Of a stretch of 64,000 nt of DNA, positions 19,166 to 21,264 are shown piece by piece. Below the pieces are notes generated by a model that did not search any database, was not told where the DNA came from, and was given only the letters and a program-made list of their open reading frames with translations. Origin of the DNA: Symbiodinium natans (lineage: Eukaryota > Sar > Dinophyceae > Suessiales > Symbiodiniaceae); assembly GCA_905221605.1 (NCBI GenBank), contig CAJNDS010002745.1:1828203-1892202 (forward strand), written 5' to 3'. Every line of letters begins with the position of its first letter. Positions within the stretch are counted from its first letter, which is position 1. Both the position numbers and the translations under genes were made by a program.

Positions 19166-21264
19166 CTAAGACACCTTGAAATGCACGACCATTTCTGGAT
19201 AGGCCTGAGCTCCATTAAAAATAACGAACTCTCGATGTACCTGCCGTGACCGATGGTAGTAATCCGTAGGCGTCCCTGGCTGAGCGATCACAGAATGAAA
19301 CCGACCTAAACCCTAAACCCTAAACCCTAAACCCTAAACCCTAAACCCTAAACCCTAAACCCTAAACCCTAAACCCTAAACCCTAACCGCAGGCTCCACT
19401 TTCATACTTCTCAGAGGCCCTTGCGCATGCTTGGCGTGCCCAAGGATCGCGCGAGCAATTATGAAGCAGCCTTCCCCTGAGCTGTTTCTGGGTGACTTTA
19501 CAGCCCCCGAATACTGAAGAGCTTTGCAACTTTGATCTGTGAAGTAGACTCCTTGGCCATACAGCCCTCTTTCATGTGCAAGGCGCTCATCAAACCCAAA
19601 ACTCGCAATGTCCTCTGTCTTGTCCAGCGTGGTGCCGTGGATGACCAGAACCTCATTGATCCTTGCATCCAGATGCGCCCAGCTGCACACTTCCGCCGGC
19701 AAGGTGCTGGTCACAGTGGGGACGTTTTCGCGGCCCTCCAACTCTTTACGCACTTGGTCCTTACGGAACTCGTAATCCTTCCAGATGTTGATGTTGCAGA
19801 CTTGGTGGAGGGCAACGACCCTGAAATGGCTCATGCGCACGCAATCTGCGAGGTGGTCTGGAGGCCATGCCCCAAGCACAGCCTCCTGGATCTTTGAGAA
19901 AGCTGCATCCCAGTGATTCAGCCGTGCGCACATCTTTGCCTGTAGCTGGCGGCTCGTCCGCCAAGCTTCTTGCAACAACATCTGCGTGGCATGGTCTGCT
20001 TGTGACCTCAGGAGTCACACACGCAAACAATTTACGACTTAGGAACGCCGAAGCAAACACATGCAGCCGAAGAGAGCCAAGACTGGGAACTGAGCAAGTC
20101 TTACTGTGGTCATCTCGCGCAAGCAAGATGCTTCGCAAGGAACCCTGAATCATGAGCCCTGAACCACAAGCTAACCCCAAACCCTAAACCCTAAACCCCG
20201 AATCATGAGCCCTGAACCACAATTTGACATCCGGGAGCTCCAGCTGCGCCACTTTGGCGAGTAGCTCCTCTTTCTCTCGCAGCAGGAGCTGCTTTTCTGA
20301 TTGCCTGAGTGGCTGAGTTCATAGGGTTTAGGGCTTAGGGTTTAGGGTTTAGGGTTTAGGGTAAAGTGTACACTTTCAGTTCTATAGGGGATTGATTAAA
20401 GTATCCCAAAAAGTGTAAAGTGTACTCATTCAGCTACGAAGTTGCAGCTGCTCCACTTGAGCAGCCTTCGCCTCTAGTGGTGTTGCGTCCGATCTTGCCT
20501 CGCCCCTCCTGATGTCCCGTACACGGCCGGTTCTGAGATTGCACTGGACCATGGAATAGCTATCGATGGCATAAGCAAAGCCGTTCGATCGGACGTAGAA
20601 GACGTCAGGCAGATTGACATCAAGATCCCAGCCCTCTGCCCACCGCTTCTCAAGCATGTCATTCATTCCCCTTTTCATTGGCTGCCAGTTTTCCTTCTTC
20701 CCATCTCCGCTGGCCAAAAACTCCCATCGAAGCTCAAAGTCAAAGCCTGTGCACTCATCGGCTGTGTGAAGCGTTTGGATGGTTAGAAGCATGTCCACCC
20801 CACCATCATGAGGCACGCACCATCCAGATTCGGGCACGGTCAAGTCACCCGGACTACGGTTGGAGGGGTTGAAGGCACATACTGTCATATCCCCTTCTCT
20901 GGGCCCGATCCACCAGCCGTGGTTCACTTCTCCATCGCGGTCATCCCAGAAGTAGATCACCATGGATTGGCTCGACAAGCCCAAATCATCCAAGCCTTCC
21001 TTCTTGTAGAGTGGCTTACCATGATGCAAGCCGTTCAGGGCGTACTCCCCCCTGATCAAGTCAGAAATGTGCGGGTTCGCGATGCCACCCGAAGCATAAA
21101 GTGCAGGCGCTGACGCTGCTGGTCCAGTGCCACGACTCAACCATGCGGCCATGTCTCTCTCCGAGAGCTGACATAAGGATGTCGGGCGGATCTGCTGCGC
21201 AAAGGTACGATGCCAGACATGCAAGTTCTCGTCGACCTTGACATGTAGTTCCGAGTATAGTTCC
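19166..21264 (-). CDS. WWE-PARP: poly(ADP-ribose) polymerase family protein, 5' end not resolved
   Basis: Four exons are visible. 21264 to about 20438 carries a Trp-rich domain (VIYFWDDRDGEVNHGWWIG), then a WWE domain (WEFLASGDG, then YSMVQCNLRTGRVRDIRR). About 20304-20229 is a leucine-rich coiled coil. 19981-19408 is the catalytic domain with VIHGTTLDKTEDIASFG and GLYGQGVYFTDQS, the PARP signature with HGT and YGxGxYF. 19305-19166 gives HSVIAQPG, VHREFVIFNGAQAYPEM and a stop. Such enzymes transfer ADP-ribose from NAD+, and WWE domains bind ADP-ribose-type ligands. The last intron (19306-19407) has donor GTATGA and 82 bp of telomeric repeat ending in TTTAG. It joins AGA A|GT in frame. The intron at 19982-20228 is a clean GT-AG in phase 0. 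The donor near 20438 is unresolved. The start codon lies upstream in an unseen exon. Confidence 0.9.
19306..19387. repeat. telomere-type array forming the 3' part of a PARP intron
   Basis: 82 bp of pure CCCTAAA on +, which is TTTAGGG in the gene's sense. The last sense bases, TTTAG, are the acceptor that restores the PARP frame. Confidence 0.95.
20147..20222. repeat. 23-bp direct repeats flanking a telomeric insert
   Basis: GAATCATGAGCCCTGAACCA plus three bases at 20147-20169 recurs perfectly at 20200-20222. The 30 bp between are telomere-like. The insert lies inside a PARP intron. Confidence 0.85.
20366..20437. repeat. AAAGTGTACACTTT palindrome and repeat in a PARP intron
   Basis: A 14-bp palindrome AAAGTGTACACTTT and a nearby copy AAAGTGTAAAGTGTACT sit between the telomeric array (20321-20362) and the WWE exon. 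Confidence 0.6.

Follow-up and report, generated by a model that had tools for sequence, protein, structure and literature searches.

The stretch of DNA analysed here, hereafter the window, comprises 64,000 nucleotides of Symbiodinium natans (C2433:1828203-1892202) within a contig of 2,077,202 bases, and the telomeric array described below is accordingly non-terminal. The host is a dinoflagellate nuclear genome. A 21-mer that we take to be the dinoflagellate spliced-leader core has 205 exact copies in this genome and none of its reverse reading; in the window itself, a search allowing up to three mismatches returned no copy of this core.

The gene of interest is read from the minus strand and joins a WWE domain to a PARP catalytic domain. 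Its only close paralogue found, L002 on contig C1435, is the reference for the comparisons below. The parts of the gene are as follows.

20438..21224, minus strand: WWE-domain exon (PF02825, E 2.9e-6); the listed open frame starts at 21224, the start codon not being established
20297..20437, minus strand: predicted intron 1, 141 nt, GTAGCT...CAATCAG, removal of which gives VEQLQLQKQLLLREKEELLAKVAQLE
20335..20362, minus strand: array reading CCCTAAA in gene sense, within the 3' part of intron 1
20199..20296, minus strand: coiled-coil exon (3' end not fixed), resembling L002 and among the 45 best-scoring coding-like spacers of 114
20179..20198, minus strand: short array reading TTTAGGG in gene sense, close to the 5' end of intron 2
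19388..20004, minus strand: catalytic exon up to MKVEPA, PF00644 (5' end not fixed; the listed open reading frame starts at 19981)
19305..19386, minus strand: the TTTAGGG array of this study, 100% matches, 11.7 copies
19166..19312, minus strand: last exon, (GLG)RFHSVIAQPG...VHREFVIFNGAQAYPEMVVHFKVS-stop, containing the triad E (HREFVIF)

The WWE exon is 51% identical to L002 over 230 aligned positions and the catalytic exon 67% identical over 195. The first catalytic exon alone already matches PF00644 with 35.4 bits (E 1e-8; cut-off 26.7). Of the catalytic triad, which we take to be H-Y-E, the H and Y precede the array and the E follows it, so that retention of the array would remove the catalytic Glu. 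Intron 1 is absent from L002, and the product of its removal has the same length as the uninterrupted VEQLLTEKQELLDKNASLMAEVARLE of the paralogue. On its upstream side the coiled-coil exon that follows is bordered by a CCCTAAA array, and downstream by one of TTTAGGG.

Several other features of the locus and its surroundings deserve mention. Directly ahead of its CCCTAAA array, intron 1 carries an inverted pair, GTACACTTT ... AAAGTGTAC, which is missing from the paralogue along with the intron. PF00644 has 68 matches in this one genome, which indicates a large PARP family, many members of which lie in long uninterrupted frames. The window also holds a 90-bp minisatellite (7.4 copies, 2039-2698), a 114/230-bp array (7527-8028) and CTTC runs at 8423-8481 and 9005-9145. 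No relative outside this genome was confirmed in the viral or genome contig collections searched, and Rfam at gathering thresholds returned nothing in the 64-kb window.

A preliminary description of this DNA had reported a telomere-type array inside a PARP gene, and this is borne out by tandem-repeat analysis. The array is a pure 82-bp run of the heptamer, reading TTTAGGG on the strand of the gene, and it sits inside the coding part of the catalytic domain, with PF00644 sequence on both flanks. An array of this length is far beyond chance, yet it is not special within the window, where (TTTAGGG)2 has 739 matches on both strands against 0.01 expected. Its purity indicates that it is young or recently homogenised. 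The catalytic exon continues through GPLRSMKVEPAV directly into the array, and beyond it, in the same frame, lies RFHSVIAQPGTPTDYYHRSRQVHREFVIFNGAQAYPEMVVHFKVS-stop. All three sense frames of the array itself contain stops, and no partner array of CCCTAAA is present on the 3' side.

The same description had placed an intron here with a donor at 19407 and an acceptor at the TTTAG ending the array, a join it held to restore the catalytic domain exactly and to be hard to explain otherwise. We compare that intron with two alternatives, of which the first is preferred on in-frame join enumeration, loop lengths and coding homology.

19313..19387, minus strand: preferred candidate intron, 75 nt, GCG/GTTAGG ... 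GTTTAG/GGT, which would give MKVEPA-GLG-RFHSV
19313-19381, minus strand: near-equivalent candidate intron, 69 nt
19306..19407, minus strand: previously proposed intron, 102 nt, disfavoured because it removes MKVEPAV, leaves a loop of 13 residues and scores lowest for PF00644 among the four joins compared

The 102-nt intron, with donor GAA/GTATGA and acceptor TTTAG (19306), is a legal GT-AG intron, and its join of 19408 to 19305 is indeed in frame (...GPLRS-RF-HSVIAQPGTPTDYYHRSRQVHREFVIFNGAQAYPEM...). The two flanks share one reading frame even unspliced, however, so that any excision of a multiple of three fits, the 102 nt being 34 codons. Among the GT/GC-AG joins enumerated, ten leave the frame open as far as the gene's end, and FHSVIAQPG is retained in five of them; that the join is exact, or hard to account for in other ways, is therefore not confirmed. 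The paralogue codons KVEPLV, followed by DLADPSKGRFHSV, match MKVEPAV, which lies between the proposed donor and the array and would be discarded by this join, with synonymous AAG/AAA and CCC/CCT changes. On a longer scale, the window stretch AAAGTGGAGCCTGCGGTT matches AAGGTGGAGCCCCTGGTT of L002, and the L002 coding sequence KVEPLVDLADPSKGRFHSV aligns against MKVEPAV-[array]-RFHSV of the window. L002 has an intron of its own after GPLK with a predicted acceptor, and when its in-frame joins are enumerated, KVEPLVDLADPSKGRFHSVVAQPGTPT falls in the next exon in 14 of 16, KVEP being dropped in the other 2 of 16. The stretch GTATGAAAGTGGAGCC, previously taken as the start of the intron, is thus most likely coding sequence, and the junction 19408/19305 is not supported.

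Loop lengths point the same way. Measured by eye from the (L/C)G of the ARxxLG motif to the next (H/D)S(V/I)-type motif, the loop has 13 residues under the 102-nt join, 22 or 24 under joins that keep MKVEPA, 26 in L002 and at least 19 in 13 other PARPs of this genome (13 of the 68 PF00644 matches, chosen for long matches). PF00644 itself barely separates the four joins compared, all of which exceed the cut-off: the 102-nt join scores 43.3 bits, MKVEPA-GLG 44.7, MKVEPAVR-GLG 45.6 and MK-GLG (donor AAA/GTGGAG, without VEPA) 47.0, so that the top score is not that of the preferred join. In favour of the 102-nt intron, its donor falls within one codon of the GT donor of the paralogue (GAA/GTACCT). 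The array would begin 20 nt into it, which is not odd: elsewhere, the distance from an exon match to the nearest TTTAGGG heptamer beyond it is 8-204 bp. Weighing the lost codons and the short loop against these points, we regard the 102-nt intron as improbable and its GTATGA donor as probably wrong. Splice sites at or inside the array, in one of several possible pairs, appear to fit better. The comparison with L002 further suggests that the array has taken the place of some seven or eight exon codons, roughly DLADPSK of the paralogue, which has putative coding sequence DLADPSKG at the place of the array and in whose coding sequence the array is absent.

Both sides of the array bear the marks of constraint. 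Between the window and L002, dN and dS are 0.20 and 1.17 over 186 codons of the catalytic exon, and 0.36 and 0.94 over 214 codons of the WWE exon. Beyond the array, the 12 codons of FHSVIAQPGTPT show 6 synonymous and 1 nonsynonymous difference from L002, and the last 25 codons 11 and 4. The codons after the array thus appear constrained, in a paralogue comparison that does not date the insertion, that is, does not separate selection before it from selection after it.

The array belongs to a very large population. In the 759.4-Mb assembly of 2543 contigs, (TTTAGGG)3 has 2,369,589 matches against 74 control matches. With the 4.36 matches per array seen in the window, this gives an estimated 0.54 million arrays and about 3.2% of the genome, compared to 8.3% of the window. 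The orientation of neighbouring arrays is structured. We denote CCCTAAA-gap-TTTAGGG on the plus strand as '-+' and TTTAGGG-gap-CCCTAAA as '+-'; each layout is the same on both strands, and the strand of the gene therefore need not be known. In the window, the gaps of 48 neighbouring '-+' pairs are tight, 37 of them between 65 and 179 bp, while those of 48 '+-' pairs range broadly from 92 to 1857. Similarly, the median gap is 128.5 ('-+', n=104) and 266.5 ('+-', n=100) in a sample of 20 10-kb stretches (17 with arrays and 3 without; about 20 kb masked), whose contigs were mostly chosen for arrays and which is accordingly array-rich. Spread is uneven: three of the 20 sampled stretches (L009, L018 and L027) have no arrays, and the myosin stretches of C2403 and C285 (L029 and L030) have 0 and 2 two-unit arrays.

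The tight '-+' gaps are also the more coding-like ones. Among gaps of 60-200 bp, the median coding score is 7.70 for '-+' (n=110), compared to 5.02 for '+-' (n=45), 5.67 for '++' (n=34) and 4.72 for '--' (n=52), with p values of 1.7e-8, 1.4e-3 and 2.7e-7, respectively. The codon model was built from 4132 codons of exons outside the scanned loci with all gap classes as background; earlier models had used '+-' gaps as background, which favours the result, and the test was redone for this reason. A second comparison started from coding-like segments picked regardless of arrays, with the PARP locus excluded and segments longer than 260 bp or overlapping arrays dropped. Among the top 400, segments flanked on each side by an array no more than 150 bp away comprise 61 '-+', 8 '+-', 14 '--' and 9 '++', against 340, 269, 173 and 110 for random 60-bp pieces ('-+' vs '+-', Fisher 4.6e-8); an earlier version of this test gave 63:11 for '-+' vs '+-'. 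The next 200 segments show no bias (16 '-+' vs 17 '+-'), as expected if they are mostly not coding. Neighbouring spacers share a coding strand in 54 of 90 pairs when no threshold is applied; a mild threshold leaves 21 of 28 in agreement, a strict one 2 of 4. Scanning individual spacer frames against Pfam supports neither side, as no match arose in 85 '-+' frames (of 112 candidates) or in 53 '+-' frames. Two spacers of stretch L019, joined by hand into a pentatricopeptide-repeat-like sequence, reached only E 0.072 and 13.6 bits against a cut-off of 25 and were set aside. Coding-like stretches with CCCTAAA to their left and TTTAGGG to their right imply introns that start with TTTAGGG and end with CCCTAAA, and such a tendency in this genome is statistically supported.

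Direct counts on bona fide exons form a smaller and weaker test than the coding-like segments. These exons were selected among Pfam matches by length and frame, without sight of their flanks: hand-picked kinesins (23 exon matches in 20 places, of 98 matches, and three added later), 5 of 12 dynein matches, 12 of 63 helicase matches and 12 myosin exons of 28 matches; Ion_trans (153 matches) was left out, its listed matches being mostly long. Taking the nearest array of at least two units within 200 bp, predicted and opposite polarity stand at 10:2 for the 23 kinesin exons (p 0.039), 3:2 for 20 further exons (12 helicase, 5 dynein and 3 kinesin) and 0:1 for the 12 myosin exons. Over all 55 exons this is 13 predicted and 5 opposite (p 0.096), a two-unit array within 200 bp being absent for 41 of the 55. 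When flanks with at least one heptamer are counted, the ratios are 13:2 for kinesins, 5:4 for the further exons and 4:4 for myosins, together 22:10 (p 0.05). One helicase exon (L076), for example, is bracketed by 17 CCCTAAA and 12 TTTAGGG heptamers. The mixed counts indicate that the polarity rule is a tendency, and one that only some introns of this genome follow.

Taken together, we consider it slightly better than an even chance that the array arose in the last coding part of the PARP gene, replaced some seven to eight loop codons and is removed as an intron, as part of a wider habit of this genome. An interstitial telomeric array would have arisen inside the last coding part of this one dinoflagellate PARP gene at the expense of loop codons. 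It may have entered as a patch in the repair of a double-strand break, as suggested by the left junction, whose GGTT is almost in phase with the heptamers, and by the flanking sequence missing relative to the paralogue. Because the repeat carries GT and AG every seven bases, it could then be removed as a GT-AG intron of about 69-75 nt, with the donor at the array's left edge (GCG/GTTAGG or AGG/GTTTAG) and the acceptor at a TTTAG near the right edge. The polarity of the arrays might be kept because splicing is favoured by G-runs close to the 5' splice site and by a C/T-rich tract with CTAAA ahead of the 3' splice site; alternatively, two arrays may pair in the pre-mRNA and draw the ends of the intron together. 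The earlier proposal that telomere-type DNA acts as intron sequence in a conserved gene thus finds indirect support in the constrained codons after the array, the array in intron 1 and the polarity of arrays around coding-like segments, although the particular junction put forward with it does not.

The strongest competing account is that the array simply broke the gene. If it were retained in the transcript, the protein would end GPLRSMKVEPAVRV-stop and lose the catalytic Glu, leaving a recent pseudogene or a truncated form. The stops in every sense frame of the array, its purity, its position in what is coding exon in the paralogue and the lack of a second array on the 3' side all suit such a loss. 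Yet the remaining coding parts examined are open and constrained, and many coding-like segments of this genome adjoin arrays, so that we rate a broken gene as somewhat unlikely. A broader reading, which we hold to be rather unlikely, is that introns here are born from or maintained by telomeric DNA: breaks would be healed with repeats on both sides and the scar spliced out. Both ends of a break might be healed by telomeric addition and then rejoined, leaving TTTAGGG...CCCTAAA, and the repeats would either provide the donor, branch-like and acceptor signals themselves or base-pair from one side of the intron to the other. The estimated half-million arrays would then be largely a record of intron gain by telomeric healing; the PARP array, one-sided and still within an exon, would be an unusually young example.

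The arrays could instead be the terminal inverted repeats of intron-carrying mobile elements. Introners with terminal inverted repeats are described for dinoflagellates in the available parts of three reports (PMC9860276, PMC7789003 and PMC11453091), the TTTAGGG...CCCTAAA arrangement is itself an inverted-repeat layout, and intron 1 has its own inverted pair. Against such elements, the two terminal arrays of a putative intron show no correlation in length (rho -0.01, n=141) and do not have repeat variants in common (0.151 vs 0.152 shuffled), and the PARP array is single, without a partner. The '+-' interiors, with telomere-like bases masked, share no common body, as 18 of 144 fall into 15 matching pairs, the best of those shown extending over 26-58 bp. 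The '-+' gaps, when compared with one another, gave 1 matching pair among 149. The independent ends and the few matching interiors argue against one transposon with telomeric ends, and telomeric-ended introners are in our judgement very improbable. An inverted GGTACCC/GGGTACC-ended element does occur at window positions 21647-21711 (minus strand), L002 1176-1253 (minus strand) and L051 231-304, respectively near the PARP gene, in an intron of the paralogue and beside a kinesin exon, with a similar stretch lacking the exact ends in L050. It has the look of a separate, classical introner or MITE family rather than of part of the telomeric arrays. An assembly artefact, finally, is hardly credible. 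Tandem repeats are difficult to assemble, but the (TTTAGGG)3 21-mer occurs 2.37 million times genome-wide, the flanks of the array form one gene, and the published Symbiodinium natans assembly is described, in the available text, as built from short and long reads with 0.02% gaps (PMC8045281), in a report that also describes PacBio Iso-Seq full-length cDNA and spliced-leader libraries of this species.

The origin of new introns is an old question, and their known mass producers are introner transposons. Were intron edges marked by telomeric repeats in a preferred orientation, telomerase or telomere-primed break repair would become a further candidate source of introns, and it would follow that a repeat with stops in every sense frame can be tolerated in genes because it is spliceable. 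No description of telomeric repeats at intron ends was found in the literature searched, an earlier mention in Roy et al. 2023 on dinoflagellate introners being possible. Nor do the available parts of PMC7023079, PMC11508785, PMC11453091, PMC7789003, PMC9860276, PMC9498494, PMC8045281, PMC7215372 and PMC6410037 describe telomeric intron ends, and neither 'telomer' nor 'TTTAGGG' occurs anywhere in the main text of PMC8045281.

The protein encoded here shares its domain and triad motifs with the tankyrase/PARP catalytic domain (PF00644; PDB tankyrases). Its gene differs in that a telomeric array separates the triad Tyr from the Glu. In intron gain by break repair and in the intronisation of exon sequence, an insertion into an exon survives when it is spliceable. 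The present case would differ in that the inserted DNA is telomeric, with GT and AG in every repeat.

Dinoflagellate introners that have inverted-repeat ends and odd splice sites are described in the accessible portions of PMC9860276, PMC7789003 and PMC11453091. The putative introns described here resemble those of Amoebophrya (PMC7789003) and Symbiodinium microadriaticum (PMC9860276), to the extent covered by those portions, in being new introns in coding sequence with sometimes pairable complementary ends. They differ in that the recurrent part is a telomeric heptamer of variable copy number, the ends vary independently and few interiors match; the paired terminal inverted repeats of one family and the shared interior that mark introners are seen neither at the single PARP array nor in the sample of putative introns.

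The closest parallel to the array itself lies in the short interstitial telomeric sequences inserted at double-strand breaks in primates, rodents and horse, where, according to the available part of PMC7215372, in-register bases or deletions are found at the junction. The PARP array is like these in being a pure, non-terminal repeat. Judged against an old paralogue (dS about 1.2), the GGTT at its junction, nearly in register, and the putative loss of some 7-8 codons would be consistent with such an insertion. According to that part of the same report, the human set has no interstitial telomeric sequence within an exon, and introns contain the proportion expected by chance (PMC7215372). In contrast, the PARP array lies within coding sequence, and the arrays examined in this genome are biased to coding-like edges with a preferred polarity.
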